A stretch of DNA of 33,242 bases from Chitinophagaceae bacterium. GTDB lineage: Bacteria; Bacteroidota; Bacteroidia; Chitinophagales; Chitinophagaceae. The notes beneath the pieces were generated by a model. It did not search any database, was not told where the DNA came from, and saw only the letters and a program-made list of their open reading frames with translations. The DNA is taken from positions 1 to 33,242 of the forward strand of contig SDZZ01000001.1 of assembly GCA_004173255.1 (NCBI GenBank). The letters are read 5' to 3'. A program made the translations under genes and the position numbers. Shown piece by piece: positions 4,451 through 32,975 of the stretch; the stretch's first letter is position 1; each line of letters opens with the position of its first letter.

Positions 4451-5485
4451 CTATTTCCCGGCCTTAATCCGCGCCCCGATATCGTCCCAATTATACAGCT
4501 GGAAAGTACGGTCATCGCTCATTGCCACAAACATTCCCCGCGGAAATCCGGGAAGGGGAACATTGGTAACATCACTTCCATCGCTTTGGCGGGTGGAAAC
4601 GGGCACAATGGCAATACGATCATGCTGGTGCGGATTGGAAGACTCCCCTTCCCTTCTGTATACATTGAATGTGTTGGCCGACTGGTCGGACACCAGGATG
4701 TAGCCCTGCCCGGCGGTAGTTTTGTAAACGGAAATGCCCTCGTTGTCTTCCCGGAACTGGCCCTGGCCGAAAACTGCCAGTTCTTCGTTTCCTTTAGCCG
4801 GATCAGCAAAATATTTACGAATACCGAACTGTTCGTCCGAATAGTACACATACCCCAGTTCGTTATCTACTGCAATGGATTCAATCTCTTTCTTACCACT
4901 GTATTTCCCAAACTTCCTCACCAGCTGCATCACCGGTTTGCCGTTTTCATCCGCCAGCCTGTACTGCCATAGATAACCGTCTGCCGGGCCTGATTTCCTG
5001 CCGACAATCAGGTAAATGGAGTGGTCGGCCGGATGGGTATATACAGCAACGCCCATGGGTTGCCTGTCAGCTTCACCCTCAAAAACCGGTAATCCGCCCC
5101 CATCCACTTCGATGAGTTGTGGCAGGGTGTAAAACCGGAGACTGTTACTGCCGCGCTCGGTACAGATGGCAAGATCCAGCACTTCGGCACCCAGCCTGAA
5201 GCCATATGCCACATCCACGTTGTTGGGTCGCTGCAACCCGACAACCTTATTCACCACTTTTCCCTGCAGGTTGTACGCATACAAGCCGCCGCCGGTTTCT
5301 TTATCGGTGCCGATAATGAGGCTTTGTGAAGGATCGGCACGGTTTATCCAGATCGCAGGGTCATCTGTATCGAATGCGGTCTGCTCCGTCACCACTACCG
5401 GTTTCACCGCATCTGGTGCAATACCGGCCCGTTGGGGTGGCCTGCATCCTGTTACAAAAAGAATGGCAACGATGATTAAACGCAT
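4451..5485 (-). CDS. Beta-propeller 3-phytase, lipoprotein
   Basis: The 344-residue product has a lipoprotein signal (MRLIIVAILFVTGC, lipidated Cys14). The mature part has features of the beta-propeller phytase family: TDDPAIWINRADPSQSLIIG, TGGGLYAYNLQGK, VDVAYGF, RGSNSLRFY, NEGISVY and GYILVSDQ. These enzymes bind Ca2+ at acidic sites in a six-bladed propeller and remove phosphate from phytate (inositol hexakisphosphate). Length fits the family (about 310-380). It is the second gene after the TonB receptor at 5550-8417, 64 bp apart on the same strand. This implies hydrolysis at the cell surface or in the periplasm coupled to uptake of inositol phosphates or a chelated metal. Function is inferred from family membership. 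Confidence 0.92.
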   Translation of the reverse strand: MRLIIVAILFVTGCRPPQRAGIAPDAVKPVVVTEQTAFDTDDPAIWINRADPSQSLIIGTDKETGGGLYAYNLQGKVVNKVVGLQRPNNVDVAYGFRLGAEVLDLAICTERGSNSLRFYTLPQLIEVDGGGLPVFEGEADRQPMGVAVYTHPADHSIYLIVGRKSGPADGYLWQYRLADENGKPVMQLVRKFGKYSGKKEIESIAVDNELGYVYYSDEQFGIRKYFADPAKGNEELAVFGQGQFREDNEGISVYKTTAGQGYILVSDQSANTFNVYRREGESSNPHQHDRIAIVPVSTRQSDGSDVTNVPLPGFPRGMFVAMSDDRTFQLYNWDDIGARIKAGK

Positions 5486-5503
5486 GGGTGCTGATTTAAA
5501 AGG

Positions 5504-5540
5504 ATGTGCCGGTAACAGCTCCTGGCATTCACCGGCACAT
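5504..5540 (-). promoter_or_regulatory. Strong hairpin between receptor and phytase genes
   Basis: ATGTGCCGGT (5504-5513) pairs perfectly with ACCGGCACAT (5531-5540) around a 17-base loop. On the transcribed minus strand it is followed only by a weak T-rich stretch (CCTTTTAAATC), so it is not a full terminator. A partial terminator or an mRNA-stabilising structure that sets the receptor-to-phytase ratio is plausible. The pairing is seen; the role is inferred. Confidence 0.6.
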
Positions 5541-5549
5541 TAATCCAGG

Positions 5550-8417
5550 TTATTTACTCAGGTCGAACTTTACGCCAAGGTTAAACTTCGGACCATAGTA
5601 TTCGGTTTGTGCAGTATAGCCTTTTGTTCCCTGGTAATACCGCAGCGGCTGGTTGGTGAGGTTATTTGCTTCCGCAAACACGCGCCATTTTTTTGTAAAG
5701 GCATAAGATGCGTTGGCGTCAAGGAAAAACTGATGGCTGTAATAACGGTCATTGAAACTGTCGGCACCATAGCCTGCATCATCACTGTCATCTACGTATG
5801 ATGAGGTGTAGTTGCCCGACAGACGTACAGTCAGTTTTGGATTTTCATAACTCAATGAGGCATTCCAGATGTTTGGTGCTGCGCCGGGCAACTTGACGTT
5901 GCTACGGGTCAGGTCGCCCGACTCCGGATCAAAAATATTGCTGGCTTTGGAATGTGTGTAGGTGTAGTTGAGGTAGACGCCAAATCCTTTCCAGAATCCT
6001 GGCAGGAAGTCAAGCTGGCGCTGGATGGCCACTTCAACACCATAAACCGTAGCGCCATCACCGTTCCGACGCTGGATGAAATCATAGCGCTCGCCAGCCA
6101 GGATCGGATTATCAATGGTGGGGTAAGCTGCTGCAAATTTTTCTGATGTAAAATTCGGGTCGATATAAGTGAAGAAGAACTTATCGAGTTTTTTATAAAA
6201 CACCCCGCCGGATATAAGGCCGACAGACTTGAAATATTTTTCAGCCATCAGGTCCAGGTTCGAAGATTTTACCGGCTCCAGCGCCGGGTTACCCGCGGTG
6301 ATTTCATTGTCACCTGGCTTAATATTGAAGTACGGCACCAGGTCAAAATATTTCGGCCGGGCGAGGCTGTTGGTCCATGCTGCCTTGAGTACGAAACTAT
6401 TGCTGAATTTATACTTCAGGTTCAGGTTCGGCAGTACATCGGTGTAATCATTTTTCAGGTTGGCCGTGCCCTTGAACACTTCATCATCTTCTACAATATT
6501 ACCCGTGTAGTCCAATGCGGTGTGTTCCACACGTACGCCGATATTCATGGAAAGCTTTTCCGTAAAATCCTGTTTCAGGCTGATAAAACCCGCGCTGATG
6601 GTCTCTTTCGCGCTGTAGTTGCCGGCAAGGTATTCACCGGGTGCATCCGACTGATCGTACAGCGCACTGTTTGTCAGGTTGAGGTTGCCCAGGTATTTCG
6701 GATCGATGAATTGTCCGGCCATATATTTCCTGCCCGGATAAAAAGAGCTGCTGGTTTTATCGATCAGCGGAAGGGTGGCAATATTATCAATTTCGTTCAA
6801 TGGTTCGTATTCAAAGAAACTGTTGTTCCGTTCTTTCGTTTTGCTGCGCAGTCGTGCCCCAATTTTAAGGAAGCCGGGCTGACCCTGCACCAGTGAAGCA
6901 GGGATTTCCGCGTTGAGTTTAAAGTTGAAATCGCGTTCAAACTGGTCCTGGAACTGTTCGGTGAGTTCGGCCAGCCGGGTGTAGTCCGGCAATGCGATAT
7001 TATCCGTCAGTACCGGAAATTCTGTATCGCTGATATCCTGGTTCACCGTGATGTTTCTCAGGCTCATCGCGATATATCGTTCATTCGGCCGTTTCTCGGA
7101 AGCTTTGGCATACTGGGCACTCCAGTTCACCCGCACACGACCGAAAAGGTGGTCCCCTTTCAGCGCCAGGTTGCGTACGCGCTGGTCTTCCAGCCGACGG
7201 CCTTCATTGCGGCCATTGTCGGCACCGCCTTTGGTCTGGCGTAATACCTCGCCATTGGTATATCCAGTGATATTGCCATTGCCATCGTAGATCAGGTCAT
7301 CAGCATAGTCATCTTCATCCCCACGGTAACGATGACGCAGGCGAAAACGGTTCTCCTTGTCGTCCCTCCAGTTGTAGTTGCCATTGAGTGTGATGGTGTT
7401 CAGCGGATTGATTTTATAGTCGAGGCTGAGCCCGAGGCTACGCCGGATGCGGAGTTCATCGTATACACGAACGTCATGGTCGCTGACAAATGTTTTACCA
7501 TTTTCATCCCTGCTCCACACGGCCTCTACGTTGTCCGAACCGAACTTGTTCCGGTTGTATGAACCGCTTACCACGAATCCCAGTTTATTCTTTGCAAAAC
7601 GGTTCCCCACCACCAGGTTGGCAGTTCCCATAAAACCGTTATCACGGATCGGGTTGTAGCCTCCGGCCAGTGTACCTGATACGCGAAGGCCGTTGGGGGC
7701 AGAACGCGAGACCAGGTTAACTGAACCTCCGATGGCATCTGCGTCCATGTCGGCGGTAAGCGTTTTATTTACCTCTACGGTCTGGATCATATCAGAAGGG
7801 ATCAGGTCAAGTTGCACCCGTCGGTTGTCACCTTCAGCGGAAGGGATCCTTTCGCCATTGAATGTAACCGAGTTGAACTCGGGACCCATACCTCGAACGA
7901 TAATGTTTCGTGCTTCGCCCTGGTCGTTCTGCATGGTGATGCCGGGTACCCGTTTGATTGCGTCGCCGATGTTGGCATCGGGGAAACGGCCCATCTGGTC
8001 GGCACTGATGATATTGGTAATATTATCGCTGTTCTTCTGCTGGTTCAGCGCCCTTGCCTGTCCTTTGAGGCGGTCGCCCAATATTACCACACCTTCCGAT
8101 GTAGTGTACGAGCCGGTAAGCGATTCTGTCAGCTCGTTGTTGCCGACCGATACGGTAATGTCTTTTGTAATGGTAGAATAACCGATGTAGGAAATGGTCA
8201 GTTTATAAAGACCTCGTTTGATACCCGTAATCACCAATTCGCCGGTCTGTCCGGTAACTCCTCCAAAACTACCCGGATTGATTGAAACCGAAGCACCCGG
8301 CAGGTTGAGGTTGTCATTGTCTTTTACTTTTATGGTAACAGTGCTGGTCTGGCCCATTGCAGGAATTGCCATCAGGAACAAGATCGCCGCGAAGACCGGT
8401 GGGAAGAGGTTCTTCAT
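5550..8417 (-). CDS. TonB-dependent outer-membrane receptor of the phytase operon
   Basis: Translated from ATG 8417 the protein has 955 residues. The frame stays open further upstream to 8564, but only this start gives a signal peptide (MKNLFPPVFAAILFLMAIPA, then MGQ). Domains in order: CarboxypepD_reg-like (about 25-105; LPGASVSINPGSFGGVTGQTG), plug (about 115-240; FPDANIGDAIKRVPGITMQ, IIVRGMGPEFNSVTFNGERI, DADAIGGSVNL) and a 22-strand-type barrel ending NLGVKFDLSK. The plug resembles the large TIGR01782-like receptors rather than SusC, and no SusD gene follows. Energy comes from TonB-ExbBD. The phytase gene 64 bp downstream suggests that the substrate is phytate, a lower inositol phosphate or its metal chelate (inference from context). 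Confidence 0.92.
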   Translation of the reverse strand: MKNLFPPVFAAILFLMAIPAMGQTSTVTIKVKDNDNLNLPGASVSINPGSFGGVTGQTGELVITGIKRGLYKLTISYIGYSTITKDITVSVGNNELTESLTGSYTTSEGVVILGDRLKGQARALNQQKNSDNITNIISADQMGRFPDANIGDAIKRVPGITMQNDQGEARNIIVRGMGPEFNSVTFNGERIPSAEGDNRRVQLDLIPSDMIQTVEVNKTLTADMDADAIGGSVNLVSRSAPNGLRVSGTLAGGYNPIRDNGFMGTANLVVGNRFAKNKLGFVVSGSYNRNKFGSDNVEAVWSRDENGKTFVSDHDVRVYDELRIRRSLGLSLDYKINPLNTITLNGNYNWRDDKENRFRLRHRYRGDEDDYADDLIYDGNGNITGYTNGEVLRQTKGGADNGRNEGRRLEDQRVRNLALKGDHLFGRVRVNWSAQYAKASEKRPNERYIAMSLRNITVNQDISDTEFPVLTDNIALPDYTRLAELTEQFQDQFERDFNFKLNAEIPASLVQGQPGFLKIGARLRSKTKERNNSFFEYEPLNEIDNIATLPLIDKTSSSFYPGRKYMAGQFIDPKYLGNLNLTNSALYDQSDAPGEYLAGNYSAKETISAGFISLKQDFTEKLSMNIGVRVEHTALDYTGNIVEDDEVFKGTANLKNDYTDVLPNLNLKYKFSNSFVLKAAWTNSLARPKYFDLVPYFNIKPGDNEITAGNPALEPVKSSNLDLMAEKYFKSVGLISGGVFYKKLDKFFFTYIDPNFTSEKFAAAYPTIDNPILAGERYDFIQRRNGDGATVYGVEVAIQRQLDFLPGFWKGFGVYLNYTYTHSKASNIFDPESGDLTRSNVKLPGAAPNIWNASLSYENPKLTVRLSGNYTSSYVDDSDDAGYGADSFNDRYYSHQFFLDANASYAFTKKWRVFAEANNLTNQPLRYYQGTKGYTAQTEYYGPKFNLGVKFDLSK

Positions 8418-8447
8418 AAACAGTTTTAATTTGGCGCGAAAGTATCC

Positions 8448-8473
8448 GGGGTATGTTAAGCCATTGTTACCCC
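8448..8473. promoter_or_regulatory. Inverted repeat in the divergent receptor/uvrA-like promoter region
   Basis: GGGGTA (8448-8453) and TACCCC (8468-8473) form perfect 6-base arms around 14 bases. It lies just upstream of a poor -7-like box on the minus strand (TACTTTCG, about 8437-8444) that could serve the receptor gene. It may be an operator for phosphate- or inositol-responsive control. The regulator is unknown. Confidence 0.35.
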
Positions 8474-8532
8474 AATGTGAGCAAAACGTTACGGCTGCGA
8501 AGGCGGGGGCATGAAGTTTGCAAATTACCTGT

Positions 8533-11055
8533 ATGGACAAACAGCAGTCGGACAATGGATACATAGAAGTTCATGGCGCAAGGGAACACAACCTGAAAAA
8601 TGTTTCTGTGAAAATCCCCAGGAATGCACTGGTTGTTTTCACTGGTGTTTCCGGGTCGGGCAAATCGTCACTTGCATTCGGCACGTTGTACGCGGAGGCC
8701 CAGCGACGCTATCTCGAATCGGTATCACCCTATGCAAGAAGATTGTTTAACCAGATGTCGGTGCCGGAAGTGGATAGCATTGCCGGACTACCTCCGGCCA
8801 TCGCGTTGCAGCAGCAGCGCGGTTCGGGTACTACCCGTTCATCGGTAGGAAGTGTTACCACCTTGTCGAACCTGCTGCGCATGTTGTATTCAAGGGCGGG
8901 CGACTATCCCAAAGGCCAATCCATTATTTATGCTGAAGCATTTTCACCAAATACGCCCGAAGGCGCCTGCGGTAATTGCCACGGGCTTGGAAGGGTGTAT
9001 GAAGTAACAGAGGAATCGATGGTTCCTGACCCGGGGCTCACTATCCGTGACCGCGCGGTTGCTGCCTGGCCTGTTGCGTGGCAGGGACAGAACCTGCGGG
9101 ACATACTGACCACCATGGGTATCGATATTGATGTGCCGTGGCAACAGTTGCCCAAAAAAACGCGTGACTGGATCCTGTTTACCGATGAACAGCCCGTGGT
9201 ACCGGTGTATCCGGGTTTTGGATTGAAAGAAGTGAAAGAGGCTATCCGTTCAAAAATGACACCCGGATACAAAGGCACCTTTACCGGCGCAAGGAAATAT
9301 GTGTTACACACATTTGCCACTACGCAGAGTGCACTGATGAAACGAAGGGTTTCACAATATATGATCAGTGCCGTGTGCCCGGTGTGTCATGGTAAGAGGT
9401 TAAAGAAAGAATCATTGTCGGTCCGTTTTGCAGGATATGATATAGCCGATATTTCCCGGATCCCGTTAAAAAAACTCGCTGCCGTGTTCGCGCCCTTCGC
9501 ATCGGCAACCTACCTGCAGGATGCCACCGATAAAGAGCATCCCGAAAAAGAAGTGGTGCGTTCGCGTATTGCGCAGGACCTGACCGGCAGGCTGCAGCTC
9601 CTGCTGCAGCTGGGTCTCGGATATCTCACGCTCGAACGCAGTACGCCCACCCTTTCGCCGGGTGAATTGCAACGGCTGCGACTGGCCACGCAAATCCATT
9701 CCAATCTTTTCGGGGTAGTGTATGTGCTGGACGAACCATCTGCCGGCCTGCACCCCGCCGATACCCAGGCATTGCTCAACGCGCTTGACCTGCTGAAGTC
9801 GGCCGGCAATTCCATATTTGTAGTGGAACATGAACTCGATGTGATTCGCCGGGCGGACTGGATAGTGGATGTTGGCCCCGCTGCGGGACAGCAGGGCGGC
9901 GAAATACTTTATAGCGGGAAGCCTGACGGTCTTGCGAAAATTGCTGCATCACAAACAGCAAAGTACCTCTTTAACGATCGTCCATTCAAAGGCCATCCTT
10001 CCAGGCCACCAAGCGGCCATCTTGTACTGGAAGGTATTACCAGGAATAACCTGCAGGGGATTAACCTCAAAATACCTCTTGGCGTTTTTACCAGCGTAAC
10101 CGGGGTATCCGGATCAGGGAAATCAAGTCTAATCAGCCAGGCGCTGGTTGAACTGCTCTCGACGCACCTGGGTCATGAACCTGCCGCCGAAGAACAGGAA
10201 CCCGGATTGATGGATGACACGACTGAAATCATTACCGGCGGTCGTATTGCAGCCGGCATGGAACAGGTCAAACGACTGGTGGTGGTTGACCAGAAACCAA
10301 TCGGCCGTACCCCGCGCTCCAACCTTGCAACCTACACCGGATTGTTCGATCATGTGCGCAAACTTTTCGCTGAAACAAAAATGGCGAAGTCAAGGAAGTA
10401 CGATGCAGGGCGCTTCTCATTCAATGTGGTTAAAGGCCGTTGTGAAAACTGCCAGGGCGAGGGCTTTGTGATGGTCGAGTTGCTGTTCCTGCCCAGCGTA
10501 TATGCACCATGTCCTGTCTGCAAGGGTACGCGTTACAATGAAAAGACACTCGAAGTCAGGTACCGCGACAAAAATATAGCCGAGGTACTTGATATGACGG
10601 TCGATACTGCATACCGTTTTTTTGACGAGGAAACGGCTGTAGCCCGTCCCCTGTCGGTGTTGCATGAGGTTGGACTTGGATATCTGCGCCTTGGCCAGTC
10701 GGCAACCGAACTTTCCGGTGGCGAGGCACAACGGATTAAACTGGCAAGCGAGTTGCAGCGTGTACAGAAAGGCGACTCAGTATATATCCTTGACGAACCC
10801 ACCACCGGCCTTCATCCTGCCGATGTGGAAAAACTGATGACACAACTTGATGGATTAGTGGCTGCAGGTAATACGGTCATTGCGGTGGAACATGACATGC
10901 GGGTGATTGCAGGCAGTGATCATGTAATCGATATTGGTCCGGGTGCCGGTGATGAAGGAGGAAAAGTTGTTGGTGCAGGTACGCCGCACCACATAGCAGG
11001 ATTGAAAACCAGCCGCACCGCTGCTTTCCTGGAGAGATTCCTGGCAGGCGGCTGA
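8533..11055 (+). CDS. UvrA2-type excinuclease ATPase lacking the UvrB-binding domain
   Basis: Translated from ATG 8533, the first ATG in frame, the protein has 840 residues. It has two ABC ATPase halves: Walker [10 protein letters not shown] near residues 38 and 524, signatures [12 protein letters not shown] (near 374) and [12 protein letters not shown] (near 727), and Walker [14 protein letters not shown] and [13 protein letters not shown]. Zinc-type CxxC pairs are [26 protein letters not shown] and CPVCKGTRY. Between [22 protein letters not shown] and the first CxxC only about 30 residues remain; canonical UvrA has the UvrB-binding insertion and another CxxC there. That defines the UvrA2 class, linked to tolerance of DNA adducts or to drug resistance without direct UvrB loading. 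It ends 5 bp from the convergent DUF4130 gene. Confidence 0.92.
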
Positions 11056-17553: not shown

Positions 17554-18576
17554 TTATTGTTCAGCGAGTATCGGGTTTTTGATGAACTGCGGATCGCTGA
17601 GGGTTTTTAAAAATGCGATGACTTGTGTTTTCTGCACGTCTGTCATAGGGATGCCAAGCGTGGTACCACTTCTAAGCAGTGGATCAAGCGTGGGTGCCTC
17701 CTGCACTTTAGCTGCGTAATGGTCCAGCACCGCATCGAGTGTAATGAACCTGCCGTCGTGCATGTAGGGCGCAGTATAGGCAACATTGCGGAGCGAGGGT
17801 ACTTTGAAGCGGAAGTCATCATCCGGGTTCAGGGTTATGCCGCTTCGGCCGCGATCGCCGTTCAGTCCGGCCCTGATGCCGTTATTACGGAAGGAGAAAT
17901 CAGTCAGCAAGGGTTCCTTGTGGCAACCGGTGCAGGATTGGCGGAAAAAGGAATAGCCTGCCTGTTCTTCCGGTGTGAATGTTGCCTGGTTGCGTCTCAC
18001 GCTGTCATATTTCGACTGGTCGCTGACGCACATGACCATAAACTGCGACAGGGCTTTCATCATGTTTGCGGTAGTGATTTCTTCCGACCCGAATGCCTTT
18101 CGGAAAAGTTCGGGGTATGCAGGAATGCCCTGCAATTTTTTGATCACATTGCCGACGCTTTCATCCATCTCTTCATGGCTGGTGATCGGTACTACTGGTT
18201 GCAGGTCGAGGTCGAACACACCGCCATCCCACAGGAACAAGGGCATCCAGGCCAGGTTCATGATTGGTGGCGAGTTGCGTTTGCCCAGGCGGTCGTCGAC
18301 CCCGTGACTCAGGTCGTGCCCGTGTTGGGTAAATGCCGATGACTGTATGTGGCAGGATCCGCAGGAGATACTGTTATTGCGCGACAGGTGCGGGTCGTAG
18401 AAAAGTTTCCTGCCCAGTTCAAAACCTTCCTGGGTTACAGGGTTGGTATCAAAATGATACGCGGTTGCCGGAAAATCGGCCGGTGCTTGGAATCCGGGGA
18501 AGCGTTGCAGGATCTCCTTGCTGCAGGACAATAACAAGAACAGCACTGCACTGGTCATCCATAGTTTTTTACTCAT
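17554..18576 (-). CDS. MbnH-like di-haem cytochrome c peroxidase (MauG family), lipoprotein
   Basis: Translated from ATG 18576 the protein has 340 residues, with a lipoprotein signal (MSKKLWMTSAVLFLLLSC, Cys18). It has two c-type haem sites, CGSCH (72-76) and CTGCH (215-219), and the family segments RNSPPIMNLAW, FLWDGG and PSLRNVAYTAPYMHDGR. In methanotrophs MbnH oxidises a Trp of the partner MbnP to kynurenine, creating a copper site; related MauG enzymes also modify protein substrates. The gene starts 4 bp after the MbnP stop, so the two are likely translationally coupled. The in-frame extension to 18675 overlaps MbnP and has no signal, so it is rejected. Confidence 0.92.
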   Translation of the reverse strand: MSKKLWMTSAVLFLLLSCSKEILQRFPGFQAPADFPATAYHFDTNPVTQEGFELGRKLFYDPHLSRNNSISCGSCHIQSSAFTQHGHDLSHGVDDRLGKRNSPPIMNLAWMPLFLWDGGVFDLDLQPVVPITSHEEMDESVGNVIKKLQGIPAYPELFRKAFGSEEITTANMMKALSQFMVMCVSDQSKYDSVRRNQATFTPEEQAGYSFFRQSCTGCHKEPLLTDFSFRNNGIRAGLNGDRGRSGITLNPDDDFRFKVPSLRNVAYTAPYMHDGRFITLDAVLDHYAAKVQEAPTLDPLLRSGTTLGIPMTDVQKTQVIAFLKTLSDPQFIKNPILAEQ

Positions 18577-18580
18577 GGCT

Positions 18581-19387
18581 TTAATTTTCGGTATGGTCAT
18601 GGAAAAATACCTGGCTGCAGTTGTCTGCGATCTTCGAACTGTAATCGCCGAACATGACGCTTGCATTTTCTGCAAGGCGCACGGTGGTGCTGCCGTCCAT
18701 TACTTTCGCGATATCGGCCATCAGGTGGATATTGGATTTTCTCCCCGTCCTGGCCTGTACCAGTCCGGATGCCCGCAGGTCAAGGTTTACGTTGCGGATA
18801 TTATTAATGCCCGGGGCGCTATAACCTCCGAAGCCGCCAATGTGGAAACGAAATTTATGGTTGCCCGAAGGGTCTGCCGGGGCCGATGGTGAGTCACCTT
18901 CCATCTTGAAAAAAATGTAACCGCTGTTCCACGACCAGTACATGCCATCTTCCATTCCGCCTGTCGGATCCAGCACACCGGTGCGGCGGGATACGTCCAT
19001 GGTGCTGCGGAGGCTGTCGACCCCGACGATAAATTTCAGCGACTGGTAATCGCCCACCGGAACCCTGAAACGGGCAAACCGGGTTTCAGGTTCCGCTTCG
19101 CGGATGAGAAAGTAACTGCTGTCGGCCGGCACGATGTATTCGGTGCCATCTGTTTTTACCAGTGAAATATTGCTAATAAAATACTGAAGGCGGGAGATGG
19201 TATAGTCCTCCCCCATCTTGTTTTTGTACGTGACTGTGTTGAGGAAGAGGTTTTGTCCGCCCACAATATTATCGAACTCAACGGTCATCGGTACGAGTTC
19301 GTTGGAAGTGATGGTTGTATCCTTTTTACATCCGGTAAATCCGAGCGACGAAAGAAGCAGTAGGCAGGGTATAATAGTAAAACGCAT
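18581..19387 (-). CDS. MbnP-family copper-binding lipoprotein
   Basis: The 268-residue product has a lipoprotein signal (MRFTIIPCLLLLSSLGFTGC, Cys20) and MbnP family features: LQYFISNISLVKTDG, FIVGVDSLRSTMDVSRRTG and the Trp-rich core GMYWSWNSGYIFFKMEG. Next come HKFRFHIGGFGGY and a Cys/His C-terminus. MbnP binds copper after its partner MbnH oxidises a conserved Trp. No methanobactin precursor or MbnB/MbnC maturation genes were seen, so here the pair probably serves copper handling without methanobactin (inference). It is the first gene of the string down to GH32; a 22-bp repeat array lies 169 bp upstream. Confidence 0.92.
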   Translation of the reverse strand: MRFTIIPCLLLLSSLGFTGCKKDTTITSNELVPMTVEFDNIVGGQNLFLNTVTYKNKMGEDYTISRLQYFISNISLVKTDGTEYIVPADSSYFLIREAEPETRFARFRVPVGDYQSLKFIVGVDSLRSTMDVSRRTGVLDPTGGMEDGMYWSWNSGYIFFKMEGDSPSAPADPSGNHKFRFHIGGFGGYSAPGINNIRNVNLDLRASGLVQARTGRKSNIHLMADIAKVMDGSTTVRLAENASVMFGDYSSKIADNCSQVFFHDHTEN

Positions 19388-25552: not shown

Positions 25553-25627
25553 CCCCGGAACAGCGGATCAAACCGGGTATATTTTTTCACGTTATTGGCA
25601 TGCAGCCCAAATTCTACAAAGAAAAAT

Positions 25628-25658
25628 TTGTCAGCAAAACTTTACAACATTACTTTTG
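25628..25658 (+). promoter_or_regulatory. Bacteroidota-type promoter of the SusC operon
   Basis: TTG (25628-25630) and TACTTTTG (25651-25658) are 20 bp apart and fit the Bacteroidota consensus TTG-N19-21-TAnnTTTG. Transcription would start near 25665, about 250 bases before the SusC ATG. Confidence 0.85.
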
Positions 25659-25693
25659 TCCACCAAACTGGTAGACTATAAACGTATCAACTT

Positions 25694-25837
25694 ATGAGTA
25701 ATCGCTTTTTTACTGTTGGCAACACGCGATGTGCCTTGCCACACCGGAAGCCACCCACCGGATCACCTGCCTTATTCCCCTCCATCCTTTCGATGATGCG
25801 AATGCGCATGACCTGCCATTCCTGCTGCTGTTGCTGA
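25694..25837 (+). CDS. Possible leader peptide ending in a Cys cluster
   Basis: The first ATG after the predicted transcription start opens a 47-codon frame. It ends MMRMRMTCHSCCCC and stop, so five of its last seven codons are Cys (TGC, then TGC TGC TGT TGC). Internal ATGs at codons 34, 35, 37 and 39 could also start a peptide of 9 to 14 residues. The four final Cys codons form the 5' arm of a hairpin with GTAGCAGC just downstream. This is the layout of an attenuator leader. Polycysteine leader ORFs acting as cysteine-responsive attenuators are known in mycobacteria; a role here is inferred. An overlapping Leu5 frame competes with this reading. Confidence 0.45.
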   Translation: MSNRFFTVGNTRCALPHRKPPTGSPALFPSILSMMRMRMTCHSCCCC

Positions 25838-25848
25838 TCCGTAGCAGC
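25830..25848 (+). promoter_or_regulatory. Hairpin overlapping the Cys codons of the leader ORF
   Basis: GTTGCT (25830-25835) pairs with AGCAGC (25843-25848) with one G-T wobble around a 7-base loop. GCTGCT one turn upstream can compete for the same 3' arm. A ribosome stalled on the Cys codons would open the stem. No T run follows, so it is not a simple terminator. Confidence 0.4.
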
Positions 25849-25916
25849 CAACCTTATCCCCTGACTTCACGATTGCCTGCCGGCCTACTGCATCTTTCAA
25901 CATATAAATAACCGAT

Positions 25917-28900
25917 ATGAACCGACTTGTACGGGTCGTGGTGCTATGCCTTGCACTACTGGCCGGAGTAAACATCTTTGCGCAGGAAACAAACCGCACC
26001 ATCAGCGGTACCATCACCAATTCAGAAACCGGACAACCACTATCAGGGGCATCAGTGAGTGTGAAAGGTTCCCGGGCCGGAACATCCACCAATGAAGCGG
26101 GTGTGTTCCAGTTACAGGTAGACGCTACAGCAAAAAAATTGCTGGTCAGTTACGCCGGGTTCGACCCCCAGGAAACAGACATTGGCACAAGGGTGCAATT
26201 TGACTTTCAACTGAAATCATCTTCACGCCAACTGGAAGACGTGATCGTGACCGGTTACAGCACACAGAACAAACGCTTCATTGCCGGCTCCATCGTGAGT
26301 GTGAATGCAGACGAACTGCGAAACATCCCTGCCGCCAGCGTCAACCAGCTGTTGCAGGGAAAGGCAGCAGGGGTGCAGGTTACGGCCAACTCGGGTGTAC
26401 CCGGTGGTGGAATTACCTTTCGGGTGCGCGGGAACAATTCCATCAACGCTGCGGTGGATCCGCTGTATATCGTTGACGGTGTAATCATCAGCAACCAGGA
26501 ACTTTTCCAGACCGGTCTCGGCTCGCAAAAACAATCAAACCCCATTGCCGACCTGAACCCGGCCGATATCCAGAACATCCAGATCCTGAAAGATGCAAAC
26601 GCCACGGCGATTTACGGATCGCTGGGTGCAAACGGCGTGGTCATTATCACTACCCGCCGGGGCAAACTGAACAGCGATGGAAAGATCAGCCTCAATGTAT
26701 CACATGGATGGTCGGATGCCCCGAAGAAATTCGAACTGGTATCGGGACCCGAAAATGGGTTGCTGATCAATGAAGCCAGGATCAATACGGCAATTGACCA
26801 GGGCATCGATCCCGCCACCATTGTACTTCCCTACAATCCCGATACGCTGAAAACATATGACCGCATCAAAGACCTGTTCCGCGTAGCCAATACATCCAAC
26901 TACGAGTTATCGGCCCAGGGCGGCTCGGAAAAAAGCACCTACTATGCAAGTGTCGGGTTCCTGCGGCAGGAAGGCATAGTGCGGCCATCCAATTTTGAAC
27001 GTTTTTCCGCCCGGCTCAACTACGATAACTATGTAAACTCGAGAGTGAAAGTTGGGACCAGCCTCAATCTCAGCCGTACCTACCGCAACGTGAGTGTGAA
27101 TGACAACAGCCCGACCGGTGTAATCAATTCGGCTATTTTTCCCCGCTCCTTCCTTCCCATCTTTAATGCAGACGGCACCTATGCACGGTATGGAAGTTTC
27201 GACAACCACATTGCCCTCATCAACAACCTGGACAATAATGCCGTGGGATGGAGGATGATCGGTAATGCTTTTGCAGAGATCAGCATCCTGAAGGAACTGA
27301 AATTCCGTACCAGCTACAGCATCGATTATAACAGCCTTTATGAAAACAACTATGCCAATACCCTCATCAGCGCAGGTATTGCGTCGAACGGATCGGCAGC
27401 TTCCAATGAAACCAAGAACACAGTATTTGTAGCCGACCAGGTACTGACTTATATCAAAACGTTCAACCGCAAACATTCGGTGAATGCCCTGGTGGGTAAC
27501 TCCATTAACAATGTACTGCTGCAGAATACAAACGCCACAGGTACAGGCTTTCCAACCAACAGCATCAAGGCGATCTCTGCGGCTGCCAACAAGGCGGGTT
27601 CATCGAGCCAGGAAAAAACAAGACTGGTGTCTTTCTTTGGTAAAGCCAGTTATACCTATGACAACAAATACACGCTGGATGCAAGCCTGCGGGCAGATGC
27701 CTCGTCCCGTTTTGGTGTTGACAACCGCTGGGGTTACTTCCCCTCCGGTGGTATCACCTGGCGTGCATCGCAGGAAAAATTTGTACAGGACCTTGGTTTC
27801 TTTGATGACCTTAAATTCCGCGCCAGCGCCGGTTTGTCGGGCACACAGACGGGTATCGGGGCCTATGCCCCCCTTGGCCTCTGGGCATCAGGAGCCAACT
27901 ACCTCGATCTTCCCGGTACCGCACCCACCCAACTGGCTAATCCATCCCTTGGATGGGAGACCACCCGTCAGTATGACCTGGGAGCTGAGTTCACCATCCT
28001 GAAAAACAGGCTTTCTTTCACGGTAGACTATTACAACAAATATACCTACGACCTGTTGCTGCAGGTACCGGTGCCGTCCCGGTCAGGCTTTACAGAGCTT
28101 ACCCAAAACTATGGCGCCATCAGGAACAAGGGGGTGGAGCTTACCGTACATTCAACCAATATCAATACCGAGGACTTCCGGTGGACAACCGACTTCAACA
28201 TTTCATGGAATAAAAACAAGATTGAAAGGCTGCCGTCCGATATCACCCTTGGTGCATCCGGCCGCAATATTTCCATCATGCGGCAGGGTTATGCCATCAA
28301 CTCGTTCCAGCTGTACCGCCAGCTGTATGTTGATCCGCAAACCGGCAATGCAGTGTACGAGGATGTCAACAAAGACGGTATCATCACATCGGCCGACCGC
28401 CAGATTGTTGGCAATGCCAACCCGCGTTACACCGGTGGCCTCACCAATACCCTCAGCTATAAATCTTTTGACCTCAATTTCTTTTTCTATTTCTCGCAGG
28501 GCAACAAGATCATGAACATGCAGAACTTCTTCCTGGTGCATGGGGGTACACAATCCAATATCGGATTCCTGCCCATACAGCTGGAAAGATGGCAGAAGCC
28601 CGGTGATGTTACCGATATACCCCGACTGACCACCTTTGCGGGAAGTCCGACCGTTAACGGCGGGGCGTCGAACAACTATGGTGGTAATGTGGCCAGCCTG
28701 AGTAGCCGTTATCTTGAAGATGCATCCTTTATCCGGCTGCGTAATATTTCATTGGGTTATAATGTGCCCGCGGCAGTAAGCCGCACGCTGCACCTGAGTT
28801 CGCTGCGCGCGTATGTGCAGGTGAGCAACCTGTTTACCATCAGCGACTACTCGGGTCTTGATCCGGAGGTAAGCTCGCAGGGCGGTAACCAGAATACAGC

Positions 28901-28967
28901 AGGGTACGACTGGGCAACGGTTCCGCAGCCAAGGACGTTCCTGGTTGGATTAAACCTTTCATTTTAA
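25917..28967 (+). CDS. SusC/RagA-family TonB-linked outer-membrane transporter
   Basis: The 1016-residue protein has a signal peptide (MNRLVRVVVLCLALLAGVNI, then FAQ), a CarboxypepD_reg-like domain (about 27-100; ISGTITNSETGQPLSGASVS), a plug domain (about 110-225; LEDVIVTGYSTQNKR, VNQLLQGKAAGVQV, DPLYIVDGVI, ILKDANATAIYGSLGANGV) and a barrel ending FLVGLNLSF. SusC proteins form the TonB-driven channel of a two-part transporter with a SusD lid. The gene is first after a long leader and is followed 19 bp later by susD-like and then M14 peptidase genes. With a peptidase in the operon the cargo is probably peptide, as with RagAB of Porphyromonas gingivalis (inference). No anti-sigma (FecR) or sigma gene is nearby. 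Confidence 0.95.
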   Translation: MNRLVRVVVLCLALLAGVNIFAQETNRTISGTITNSETGQPLSGASVSVKGSRAGTSTNEAGVFQLQVDATAKKLLVSYAGFDPQETDIGTRVQFDFQLKSSSRQLEDVIVTGYSTQNKRFIAGSIVSVNADELRNIPAASVNQLLQGKAAGVQVTANSGVPGGGITFRVRGNNSINAAVDPLYIVDGVIISNQELFQTGLGSQKQSNPIADLNPADIQNIQILKDANATAIYGSLGANGVVIITTRRGKLNSDGKISLNVSHGWSDAPKKFELVSGPENGLLINEARINTAIDQGIDPATIVLPYNPDTLKTYDRIKDLFRVANTSNYELSAQGGSEKSTYYASVGFLRQEGIVRPSNFERFSARLNYDNYVNSRVKVGTSLNLSRTYRNVSVNDNSPTGVINSAIFPRSFLPIFNADGTYARYGSFDNHIALINNLDNNAVGWRMIGNAFAEISILKELKFRTSYSIDYNSLYENNYANTLISAGIASNGSAASNETKNTVFVADQVLTYIKTFNRKHSVNALVGNSINNVLLQNTNATGTGFPTNSIKAISAAANKAGSSSQEKTRLVSFFGKASYTYDNKYTLDASLRADASSRFGVDNRWGYFPSGGITWRASQEKFVQDLGFFDDLKFRASAGLSGTQTGIGAYAPLGLWASGANYLDLPGTAPTQLANPSLGWETTRQYDLGAEFTILKNRLSFTVDYYNKYTYDLLLQVPVPSRSGFTELTQNYGAIRNKGVELTVHSTNINTEDFRWTTDFNISWNKNKIERLPSDITLGASGRNISIMRQGYAINSFQLYRQLYVDPQTGNAVYEDVNKDGIITSADRQIVGNANPRYTGGLTNTLSYKSFDLNFFFYFSQGNKIMNMQNFFLVHGGTQSNIGFLPIQLERWQKPGDVTDIPRLTTFAGSPTVNGGASNNYGGNVASLSSRYLEDASFIRLRNISLGYNVPAAVSRTLHLSSLRAYVQVSNLFTISDYSGLDPEVSSQGGNQNTAGYDWATVPQPRTFLVGLNLSF

Positions 28968-28986
28968 TCATTACAAATCATCAGAC

Positions 28987-30330
28987 ATGAACTATAGATT
29001 TTTAGCCGCCGCCTCACTACTCACGCTGGCGTTAACGTTCAGCTCCTGCGAAAAATACCTGTCGCAGGACCCTAACTATGCGGTACCGGCAGAAACCGCA
29101 ATCGTTGATGCGAACACGTCACGGGCAGCCATCATTGGCACCTATGACCGTTTACAGAATTATTATGCGGGCAACTATCCGACCCTGGGTACCATCACTG
29201 CCGACCTGGTCGTGTTCAATGGTACGCTGAGCCAGTACCTGCAGCTGGACCAGAATGCGATACCGACCGACAATGTAACAACCGTTGCTGCCTACCAGGG
29301 TATTTACCGCACGATCAACTCTGCTAACAATGTTATTACCTCCGTGCCTGCTGTTACCGATCCACTACTATCTGCAGCGGAAAAAGAAAAAATTCTTGGT
29401 GAAGCCTATTTTATCCGCGCCCTGGCCTACTTCGACCTGGCACGTGGATGGGGTGGAGTGCAACTGCAACTGACCCCTACCCTTACCATTGACGGCATCA
29501 AGGGTGTCAAAAGAAGCACAGTCGACCAGACGTATGACCAGGTGCTGGCCGACCTTGTGGAAGCAGAACGATTACTTCCGGAAGATGCAAACACCAGGAA
29601 CCGCGCACAAAAAAGTACCGCACGGGCGTTGCGCGCAAGGCTGCACCTGTACCGTAAACAATGGGCCGATGCGGAAGCGTATGCTACGCAGGTGATCAGC
29701 AACACAAAGTACCAGCTGGTATCACCCTATAAAACCTTTTTTACTGCGCCATTCCAAAGCCGTGAGTCGGTGCTCGAACTGCAGTTTTCTAACAACGACC
29801 GCAATACTTTCTGGAATCTCTGGTATCCGAGTTCGCAGGGTGGGCAGTTTACCCTGAAACCCTCTGCATCACTCATCGCCCGGCTGAATGACCCCAATGT
29901 GGGTGGTAACAGGAACACGCTTATTGCGGGTACCGGTGCCAATGTGTATGGCGTTTTATATAATACCGTTGGTATCAGCACCGACCCGTCCTATGTGATC
30001 CGGATAGCGGAGCTTTACCTCATCCGTGCAGAAGCCAGGGCACAGCAAAACAAACTTGATGATGCAGTCGATGACCTTGATGCGGTACGTGCACGCGCTG
30101 GGGTGCCTGCATCCACAGCCGTTACGCAGGCAGAAATATTGCAGGCCATTGAAGATGAAAACGCGATTGAGTTTGCGTTTGAATCCCATCGGTGGTTTGA
30201 CCTCGTCCGGACTGGCCGCGCCGCCGCAGTACTGGGTGTAAGTAACCCCAACTACTGGCTGTTTCCCCTGCCCTATTCCGATGTATTGTCGGACCCCGAC
30301 CTGGAAGGACAGAACAACCCGGGTTATTAA
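28987..30330 (+). CDS. SusD/RagB-family nutrient-binding lipoprotein
   Basis: The 447-residue product has a lipoprotein signal (MNYRFLAAASLLTLALTFSS, lipidated Cys21). TPR-like helices follow, with the family segments ILGEAYFIRALAYFDLARGW, STARALRARLHLYRKQWADA, RIAELYLIRAEARAQQ, EFAFESHRWFDLVRTGRA and the C-terminal NYWLFPLPYSDVLSDP. It is on the short side for the family. SusD proteins cap the SusC channel outside the cell and capture the cargo. The gene begins 19 bp after susC and is followed 41 bp later by the peptidase, in one operon. Confidence 0.95.
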   Translation: MNYRFLAAASLLTLALTFSSCEKYLSQDPNYAVPAETAIVDANTSRAAIIGTYDRLQNYYAGNYPTLGTITADLVVFNGTLSQYLQLDQNAIPTDNVTTVAAYQGIYRTINSANNVITSVPAVTDPLLSAAEKEKILGEAYFIRALAYFDLARGWGGVQLQLTPTLTIDGIKGVKRSTVDQTYDQVLADLVEAERLLPEDANTRNRAQKSTARALRARLHLYRKQWADAEAYATQVISNTKYQLVSPYKTFFTAPFQSRESVLELQFSNNDRNTFWNLWYPSSQGGQFTLKPSASLIARLNDPNVGGNRNTLIAGTGANVYGVLYNTVGISTDPSYVIRIAELYLIRAEARAQQNKLDDAVDDLDAVRARAGVPASTAVTQAEILQAIEDENAIEFAFESHRWFDLVRTGRAAAVLGVSNPNYWLFPLPYSDVLSDPDLEGQNNPGY

Positions 30331-30371
30331 TTTTCGTATCACAATTCTTCAAGATAAAACCAGACAACTAA

Positions 30372-32975
30372 ATGAATCTTTTCAAAAAAATCGGTCGCCT
30401 CGGCGTGATAGCGGTACTGCTCATATCGCAGCAGGTCGTGGCACAAAGCAGTTACTATTTCCCCAATGCGGGCTCGTTTGATCCAAAAGTTCCAACACCG
30501 GAAGCTTTCTTCGGTTATGAAATCGGCACACTCTATACCAGGCACGACCAGATCGTTTCCTATTTAAAGGAACTGGCCAGGACATCGGATCGTGTGCACT
30601 TCCAGGTGATCGGTAAAACGTACGAGGAACGCCCGCAGGTGATCCTCACCATTACCTCACCGGAGAACTATAACAAACTGGAGTCCATCCGCACCGAACA
30701 CCTGTCGCTGGTTGATCCCGTCAAACCGGTAGTCGCTTCTACCGCACCGGTGATCATACTGCTTGGTTACAGTGTGCATGGTAACGAAACATCCAGTGGT
30801 GAAGCCGGCATCCTGACGGCGTATTACCTGGCGGCGAACCAGTCGGACGAAACAAAAAAATGGCTTGACCAGTCCGTGATCTTCATTGACCCTTCGCTTA
30901 ATCCGGATGGGCGTGACCGCGCAGCAAACTGGCACAACTCGTACCGTTCATTCCCTAACAGCGCTGATCCGCTCGACAAGGAACATACGGAAGGATGGCC
31001 CGCCGGGCGCGCCAACCATTACCTGGCCAACCTTAACCGCGACTGGCTTAGTGCCACCCAGGTTGAAAGCCAGAACCGCCTTAAGTTTTTCCACCAGTGG
31101 TATCCGAACGTACAGATTGACTTCCATGAAATGGGCGCCAACAGCACCTACTATTTTGAACCCGGACCCAAAAGGACACAGAGCCCCATCCTGCCACAAT
31201 CCTCATACGACTTCAACGCCACCCTTGGCAGGTACCATGCAGAGGCACTTGACAAAATCGGTTCCCTCTATTTTACCAAGGAACAATATGATAACCTGTC
31301 ACCAATCTATGGCTCCACTTATCCCGACTTCTTCGGGGCTGTTGCTGCCACCTTTGAACAGGCCAGCAGCCGCGGGCTTGAAACGGAAAGTGACAACGGC
31401 ATCCTGACATTCCCTTTCAGCATCCGCAACCACCTGGTGACCGGACTGGCCACCATCCGTGGTGCGGTCAACGAAAAAGCGGGATTGTTCAAACTGCAGA
31501 AAGAATTTTTCCAGACTGCACTTGACCAGGCAAAAGCATACCCGGTCAAACAATGGATTTTTGGTGACAGCCGCGACCAGTCGCTGACCAACCAGTTCCT
31601 CGACCTGCTGCTGAAGCACAAGGTGAAAGTATATGAAGTGGGTTCGTCCACTACTATTGCCGGCAAATCTTACGAAAAAGGAAAGGCCTACATAGTACCG
31701 GGCGACCAGCCCAACTTCCGCATAGTGCATTCTATTTTTGAAGAAACCGCACCGCTGAACGACAGCCTGTATTACGATAACACATCCTGGTCACTGATCC
31801 ATGCGTACGGACTGCAATACAGCAAACAAACAACCGCCACTGCGAAAGGTGCAGAGGTAACCACGGTACCGGTAACTACCGGAGGTGTAACCGGTGGAGT
31901 TTCAAAAGAGGCTTACCTGCTCAGCTGGTCGGAGTACAATGCATCGAAAGCACTGAACTACCTGCTCGAAAACGGCGTGTTTGTAAAAGCTGCCTATAAA
32001 ACTTTTAGTGCCCGCGTGTCTGACGGCCTGAAAGCATTCGGCCATGGTTCACTGGTGATACCGGTTGCAGGCCAGAAGCTCGGTGCCGACAGCTTATACA
32101 ACGTGGTAAAACGGGCGGGCGAAACAAGCGGACTTAATTTTTCCACGGTAATCACCGGCTTGAATGTGGAAGGTGTTGACCTGGGAAGTTCGAGTGTAAA
32201 AGGCATCCGCAAACCATCGATCGCGGTAGTATTCGGAACCGGTACCAACTATGAAGAGGCCGGCCAGGTTTGGTTCCTGCTGAACCAGCAGCTGAATGTT
32301 TCGCCTACCAAACTCGATATCCTCAGCCTGCCCCGTGCGCAGCTCGGCCGTTACAATACCCTGATACTGGTGAGTGGTTCGTATGCCAGCCTGGATAAGG
32401 CAACTGTTGCCCGCATCAAAAACTGGGTGGCTGAAGGTGGTACACTGATCACCTTTAAAAATGCAATCGACTGGGGCATTCAGCAGGAAATTATCAATGA
32501 AAAACTGTTTGTCGATTCCTCCGATGCAAAACTCCGCGAACGGATCGATTATGTAAAACAGGATGTAACTGAGGGAGCAAGACGTATCAATGGCGGTGTA
32601 TTCACTGCTGATATCGATACCACCAACCCGATAGCGTTCGGACTGCATAACCGGAAAATATATTTTACCAAGAATAGCCAGACCATACTGCAGCCATCAC
32701 GGAACAAGTATGCCAACGTTGCGGTGTACGACGCGCAATCATATGTCGGTGGATATGTTTCAAAAAAGAATATCGCAAAAATCAACAGCACGGCTGCCAT
32801 TGTGGTGAGTGCTCAGGGTGCCGGTAAAATTATACTTTTTGCCGATGACCCTACTTACCGCAGCTACTGGCATGGAACAGACCGCCTGCTGATCAATGCA
32901 ATTTATTTTGGGTACCAGGTTTCCCTGGGTGCGCCTTCATTCGGTGCAGCCCATGAAGAAGAGGAGGAACTTTAG
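30372..32975 (+). CDS. M14-family zinc carboxypeptidase with GATase-like C-terminal domain
   Basis: The 867-residue product has a signal peptide (about 1-25, ending VVAQ). The M14 domain (about 40-360) shows the zinc ligands His136 and Glu139 in GYSVHGNETSSGEA, His252 in IDFHEMGANSTY, the NLNRDWLS substrate-binding segment and FEQASSRG as the probable catalytic-Glu region. After a linker, residues about 615-720 resemble a class I glutamine-amidotransferase-like fold (PSIAVVFGTGTNYEEAG, LILVSGSYASLDKAT, IKNWVAEGGTLITF). The enzyme should trim peptides at the surface or in the periplasm. As the last gene after SusC and SusD it probably processes their cargo. A terminator follows 22 bp after the stop. 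Confidence 0.93.
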   Translation: MNLFKKIGRLGVIAVLLISQQVVAQSSYYFPNAGSFDPKVPTPEAFFGYEIGTLYTRHDQIVSYLKELARTSDRVHFQVIGKTYEERPQVILTITSPENYNKLESIRTEHLSLVDPVKPVVASTAPVIILLGYSVHGNETSSGEAGILTAYYLAANQSDETKKWLDQSVIFIDPSLNPDGRDRAANWHNSYRSFPNSADPLDKEHTEGWPAGRANHYLANLNRDWLSATQVESQNRLKFFHQWYPNVQIDFHEMGANSTYYFEPGPKRTQSPILPQSSYDFNATLGRYHAEALDKIGSLYFTKEQYDNLSPIYGSTYPDFFGAVAATFEQASSRGLETESDNGILTFPFSIRNHLVTGLATIRGAVNEKAGLFKLQKEFFQTALDQAKAYPVKQWIFGDSRDQSLTNQFLDLLLKHKVKVYEVGSSTTIAGKSYEKGKAYIVPGDQPNFRIVHSIFEETAPLNDSLYYDNTSWSLIHAYGLQYSKQTTATAKGAEVTTVPVTTGGVTGGVSKEAYLLSWSEYNASKALNYLLENGVFVKAAYKTFSARVSDGLKAFGHGSLVIPVAGQKLGADSLYNVVKRAGETSGLNFSTVITGLNVEGVDLGSSSVKGIRKPSIAVVFGTGTNYEEAGQVWFLLNQQLNVSPTKLDILSLPRAQLGRYNTLILVSGSYASLDKATVARIKNWVAEGGTLITFKNAIDWGIQQEIINEKLFVDSSDAKLRERIDYVKQDVTEGARRINGGVFTADIDTTNPIAFGLHNRKIYFTKNSQTILQPSRNKYANVAVYDAQSYVGGYVSKKNIAKINSTAAIVVSAQGAGKIILFADDPTYRSYWHGTDRLLINAIYFGYQVSLGAPSFGAAHEEEEEL

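Follow-up and report, generated by a model that had tools for sequence, protein, structure and literature searches.

A cysteine-tailed leader and a palindromic putative operator ahead of a sulfur-poor SusC-SusD-M14 operon in Chitinophagaceae and related Bacteroidota

The segment between a promoter at 25627 and the SusC gene at 25917 of the window (the whole stretch of 33,242 nucleotides analysed here) is likely the regulatory leader of a sulfur-starvation operon encoding SusC, SusD and an M14-family protein, with two layers of control, an operator next to the promoter and an attenuator made of cysteine codons. Comparison of related sequences makes it very likely that the leader responds to cysteine. 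Cys leaders are found in relatives both before the same importer and before sulfate-assimilation genes, so that the segment is very probably a sulfur-scavenging switch acting at cysteine shortage.

The Bacteroidota-type promoter (25627-25658, plus strand) consists of a TTTG box at 25627-25630 (-33), a 20-nt spacer and the -7 box TACTTTTG at 25651-25658. Immediately adjoining the -7 box lies a palindromic putative operator, TCCACCAAACTGGTAGA (25659-25675), with two mismatches to the consensus TCTACYAAWTTRGTAGA. The leader ORF (25694-25837, plus strand) starts 35 nt past the -7 box and possesses 47 codons (MSNRFFTVGNTRCALPHRKPPTGSPALFPSILSMMRMRMTCHSCCCC and a stop), of which the peptide end MRMTCHSCCCC contains the Cys tail that is kept in orthologous leaders; its last codons read TGC CAT TCC TGC TGC TGT TGC TGA. 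The putative regulatory Cys codons (25814-25834, plus strand) are TGC at 25814-25816 and the run TGC TGC TGT TGC at 25823-25834. An overlapping frame of 60 aa (25729-25911) encodes LLLLL. The promoter, the ORF ending in CHSCCCC-stop and the Leu5 of the overlapping frame had all been described in the earlier note on this DNA and are confirmed here, while the palindrome had been missed. An Rfam search of the window returned no match. The pattern TGYTGYTGYTGY-stop occurs nine times in the window's own genome, and the only leader among these matches is that of the window.

About 50 SusC orthologues of 58-86% identity were retrieved from a genome collection, nearly all of them followed by orthologues of SusD and the M14 protein. 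ATG-initiated ORFs with at least three Cys in the last eight codons are present in 21 of 52 regions upstream of SusC orthologues. The reverse strand yields 1, and 100 sets of dinucleotide shuffles gave 0.21 per set and never more than 3. Tails with at least four Cys occur in 12 of the 52 regions vs 0.01 in shuffles. Some close sister species inflate these counts; a trimmed set, from which three near-duplicates and four doubtful leaders were taken out, comprises 31 susC and 29 cysH leaders. The leader tuned to cysteine that the earlier note had proposed passes the test which that note had named, conservation of a Cys-rich frame, with peptide bodies that diverge. Cys-tailed susC leaders are present in Chitinophagaceae, Sphingobacteriaceae (Pedobacter, Mucilaginibacter, others) and Bacteroidales (Dysgonomonas, Tannerellaceae). 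Most orthologous leader ORFs are short, start with MK or MN, and possess an unconserved body and a Cys cluster at the end, in variants such as CCCC, MCCC, MCSTCCC, CMCCCC, RMCMCMC and TCCTRCCC. Cys makes up 53-75% of each of the last four codon positions, in leaders that had been chosen for possessing a Cys tail, and 2.9% of the peptide bodies. In the leader of a same-genus relative most of the body is deleted, and the MSN start and the terminal RCC are kept. Several orthologues lack an evident Cys leader, namely those of Siphonobacter, of two MAGs and of a Prevotella-type locus. Five remoter SusC paralogues (L049, L051, L052, L053 and L056; about 42-44% identity) possess Cys-tailed leaders of their own. 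A plain CHxCCC motif, searched in 61 relatives, gave 28 matches vs 4 for the reversed control, nearly all in antisense or unrelated frames, and was dropped.

Cys-tailed ORFs are furthermore present in 33 of 41 Chitinophagaceae cysH upstream regions scanned, nearly all of them 44-86 nt before cysH (e.g. MTYQTIYCCCCCFC and MEKMKKYMCCCCCCR); of these, L206, L209 and L232 are doubtful and were excluded at a later stage. No Cys-tailed leader was found at cysH of the window's own genus, of Terrimonas and of one more genome. Among 27 cysH loci scanned to look beyond Chitinophagaceae, convincing Cys tails are confined to Chitinophagaceae members, which makes the cysH case narrower than the susC case.

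Promoter boxes like those of the window precede the palindrome in most related leaders. Searched for over the 110 nt that precede the leader ATG, the palindrome is present with up to four mismatches in 27 of 34 susC leaders, vs 3.5% of shuffles, and in 24 of 33 cysH leaders, vs 1.1%. The latter set is the more independent test, as the consensus was drawn by eye from susC leaders. The leader ATG of locus L196 follows the operator by 3 nt. Scanning 196 Chitinophagaceae genomes for exact matches to the pattern yielded about 58 strand hits vs 3 for the reversed control. Genes behind the palindrome encode CysH, cysteine desulfurase, a MetY-type enzyme, peroxiredoxins, a PhyH dioxygenase, ComA, SusC paralogues and an LLM monooxygenase/ATP-grasp pair, and a siroheme/TauE neighbourhood is also among them; several of these genes again possess a Cys-tailed leader. 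At locus L071 (2565-4624) the pair comprises an LLM monooxygenase of the sulfonate/dimethylsulfone type and a RimK-like ATP-grasp gene, which diverge from the SusC operon and have the palindrome in common with it. Locus L162 likewise contains an LLM monooxygenase and ATP-grasp pair sharing the palindrome, and gene pairs of similar size are present in several relatives.

An Rrf2-family gene (MLSKK.QYAFKAL...) is located near cysH in the window's genome, in its congener and in Terrimonas, and is on that account a candidate for the regulator; from gene position, the chances that the palindrome is bound by this Rrf2-family protein may be put at about even. The arrangement resembles the CymR/Rrf2 cysteine regulon in that one palindrome is found at both sulfur and cysteine genes, with an Rrf2-family gene located near cysH, a comparison that is based on the shared putative operator and gene position. 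Three further loci with the palindrome deserve mention. On the minus strand of L163, operator and Cys leader (...YCCCCGRPMAQ) precede a PhyH-family dioxygenase, which may represent a new enzyme of sulfur scavenging. On the minus strand of L171, with the palindrome at 1501, the leader MKNINTLNSKIAAQNICCCCKTITGCCCSC precedes a small unknown gene and ComA (phosphosulfolactate synthase). The cysH leader of L172 / L196 possesses two tandem operators around the -7 box, and its Cys-codon segment is almost complementary to the cysH start region.

The operon itself (25917-32975) encodes a SusC/RagA TonB-linked outer-membrane protein (25917-28967, plus strand; 1016 aa; TIGR04056, 815 bits; 3.9 internal Met and 1.0 Cys per 1000 aa), a SusD-family lipoprotein (28987-30330, plus strand; 447 aa; PF07980 and PF14322; no internal Met, 1 Cys) and a protein of the M14 zinc-carboxypeptidase family (30372-32975, plus strand; 867 aa; PF00246, E 1.6e-18). 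The M14 protein has a signal-peptide-like start, an HxxE motif at residues 136-139 (HGNE), 0 Cys and 2 Met. A SusC/RagA-family TonB protein followed by a SusD-family lipoprotein is the gene order of a SusCD importer. Sulfur-sparing composition is expected for proteins made in quantity under sulfur starvation. In the window, internal Met per 1000 aa amounts to 3.9 in SusC, 0.0 in SusD and 1.2 in the M14 protein, the corresponding medians over 46-52 orthologues being 3.9, 0.0 and 1.1. Proteins of neighbouring genes contain 18.8 Met per 1000 aa (operon proteins poorer, p < 1e-20), distant homologues 12.5 (SusC) and 14.8 (SusD). Read from the predicted proteins, the paucity of Met and Cys in all three is the compositional mark of a sulfur-starvation operon. 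Among the neighbours of orthologous operons are a MetQ lipoprotein (L097) and a pair of cystathionine beta-synthase and gamma-synthase/lyase (L087). Elsewhere in the window, a second SusC, a TonB receptor followed by a phytase-family gene (4451-8564, minus strand), has 12.9 Met per 1000 aa and is not sulfur-poor, and a di-haem peroxidase (MauG-like) adjoins an MbnP-family gene (17554-19387, minus strand), a pair of a kind associated with copper handling.

A comparison with solved structures gave no sequence match for the M14 protein and generic ones for SusD, and so does not settle the substrate. The carboxypeptidase suggests peptides. That the imported class consists of sulfur-bearing peptides or related compounds is a reading to which we give an even chance.

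A mechanism in two layers is proposed. At the first, a transcription factor, probably the Rrf2-family protein encoded near cysH, would bind the palindrome next to the -7 box and control initiation. At the second, the nascent RNA would present a short ORF whose last codons specify cysteine. With ample Cys-tRNA the ribosome would complete the ORF and depart at the stop, exposing C-rich, G-poor RNA on which Rho would terminate transcription before susC. With scarce Cys-tRNA the ribosome would stall at the terminal Cys codons and keep Rho off, and the operon would be expressed. Its products would then import sulfur-bearing peptides or related compounds, trimmed by the carboxypeptidase.

For the RNA following the leader, the earlier note had placed a hairpin on the Cys codons. 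This hairpin is real in the window (25827-25848, plus strand; 8 bp, GCUGUUGC/GUAGCAGC), where it overlaps the last Cys codons and the stop, and the 71-nt stretch around it folds at -17.9 kcal/mol (z -3.0). It is not, however, a general part of the switch, as it is absent or different in relatives, the congener possessing at most a short counterpart. The spacer between leader stop and SusC (25838-25916, plus strand; 79 nt, 27 C, 11 G) is C-rich and G-poor and represents a candidate Rho-loading region; a block within it, ACGATTGCCTGCC (25869-25881), recurs unchanged in the same-genus relative and almost unchanged in Terrimonas. The C/G ratio after the leader stop is 2.3 for cysH and 2.1 for susC, whereas 136 upstream regions taken as controls have 1.07 (p about 1e-10). 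The excess of C over G extends partly into the leader body as well and may therefore reflect unstructured RNA in general. The stable hairpin with which the window's spacer opens was counted against the Rho reading. A Rho gene is present in 25 of the 26 genomes examined. In the remaining one, the window's own assembly of 903 contigs (G000), the RNA-binding domain of Rho was not found, probably owing to an assembly gap; the congener has Rho. Minimum-energy folds of whole leaders were uninformative.

The main rival retains the stalling at Cys codons and assigns it a translational output, in which the stalled ribosome opens a structure hiding the start of the downstream gene, as has reportedly been proposed for mycobacterial poly-Cys ORFs. 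Strong pairing of the Cys-codon segment with the stretch immediately before cysH (-16 to -19 kcal/mol, z -1.6 to -3.0) is indeed seen in L221 and in three related cysH leaders (L196-L198). Over 30 cysH and 30 susC leaders, however, such pairing is no better than in shuffles (mean z -0.13 and +0.26) or with swapped partners (mean rank 0.48 and 0.57), and we regard this output as the less probable one, though worth keeping in view. Between the Cys tail and the 50 nt that follow, pairing is likewise weak and without general excess. Classical attenuation, by an intrinsic terminator and an antiterminator, may apply to the ComA operon of L171 (...NICCCCKTITGCCCSC), where a terminator-like hairpin with a T run follows the leader as in a possible classical Cys attenuator, and hairpins at or below -6 kcal/mol are present in 10 of 28 susC spacers vs 8% in shuffles. 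Against this, in none of 30 cysH spacers does a hairpin with a T run attain -6 kcal/mol, and the window has no intrinsic terminator, which renders the classical form improbable as a general explanation. A Cys-rich nascent peptide might instead sense metal or redox state rather than the supply of Cys-tRNA; poly-Cys tails could bind metals, and Cys-rich leader peptides act in copper responses in other phyla. Yet number and spacing of the Cys vary freely (RMCMCMC, MCSTCCC, CCCCC, STGC), sulfur genes are the targets and the operon's proteins contain little sulfur, and this possibility is accordingly rated as very improbable. A leucine signal from the overlapping frame, which the earlier note had offered as an alternative, or chance GC-repeat composition is scarcely credible, for although the Leu frame is open in the window and matches of the bare CHxCCC search in relatives fell mostly in frames unrelated to leaders, Leu tails in susC upstream regions remain at shuffle level without enrichment (8 vs 7-10), 33 of the 41 leaders that possess a TGY run have no ATG in the Leu frame, and the same-genus relative ends in KRCC without Leu5.

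Stalling that blocks Rho is the reading favoured here, since terminators or start-site pairing are not shared, the spacer is C-rich and G-poor, and Rho is present in relatives. As far as sequence comparison can carry it, a Rho step rather than another output may be rated at slightly less than an even chance.

The leaders resemble the poly-Cys leaders of Actinobacteria in possessing a short ORF with a Cys run near its stop, before sulfur or cysteine genes and with no obvious terminator; clustered Cys codons beside the stop (window 25823-25834) and a location at sulfur genes (cysH, cystathionine enzymes, MetQ) are found here as there. Experimental work on mycobacterial poly-Cys leader ORFs, which reportedly have a leaderless start, is said to have been carried out by Canestrari et al. 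in 2020. For Actinobacteria, Cys runs near the stop codon were predicted ahead of cys operons; terminators are absent from the mycobacterial cys operons, for which polypyrimidine stretches and a possible Rho-dependent termination were put forward (Seliverstov et al. 2005, PMC1262725). The present leaders differ in belonging to Bacteroidota, in an ATG located some way past the promoter, in the palindromic putative operator common to them, in peptides that are unrelated except for the Cys tail, and in targets that include an outer-membrane SusCD importer. In Rho-dependent attenuation of the tnaC type (E. coli), as in the proposed mechanism, a ribosome held at the end of the leader ORF would keep Rho off; unlike in tnaC, the stall would here arise from uncharged Cys codons and not from ligand-induced arrest. 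Within the same phylum, leader-peptide attenuation is mentioned in general terms (PMC7366714), and leader-peptide attenuators have been suggested for amino-acid biosynthesis operons of Flavobacterium psychrophilum (PMC9723704); these share with the present leaders an ORF before an amino-acid-related operon, whereas cysteine, sulfur and SusCD targets are not described in the available part of that source. A literature search conducted largely outside subscription journals returned no report of Cys leaders in Bacteroidota, which is weak evidence of absence. The principle of the Cys leader is known; new are its phylum, its combination with an operator and its placement ahead of an outer-membrane SusCD importer.

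Whether Bacteroidota possess a widespread two-layer cysteine regulon, in which one operator and poly-Cys leaders govern cysH and a sulfur-depleted SusC-SusD-carboxypeptidase scavenger and stalled ribosomes block Rho rather than melt a terminator, is in our estimate evenly balanced. SusCD systems are usually regarded as glycan importers tuned by their substrate. Here, operon, leader, operator and the paucity of sulfur in the proteins together suggest a SusCD system that responds to the cysteine available in the cell, and would imply a sulfur-scavenging importer in soil and gut Bacteroidota. The combination of a Cys-tailed ORF and the palindrome provides a simple rule by which uncharacterized sulfur genes of this phylum may be recognized, and the system offers a tractable test case for whether Cys-codon stalling acts via Rho in Bacteroidota.
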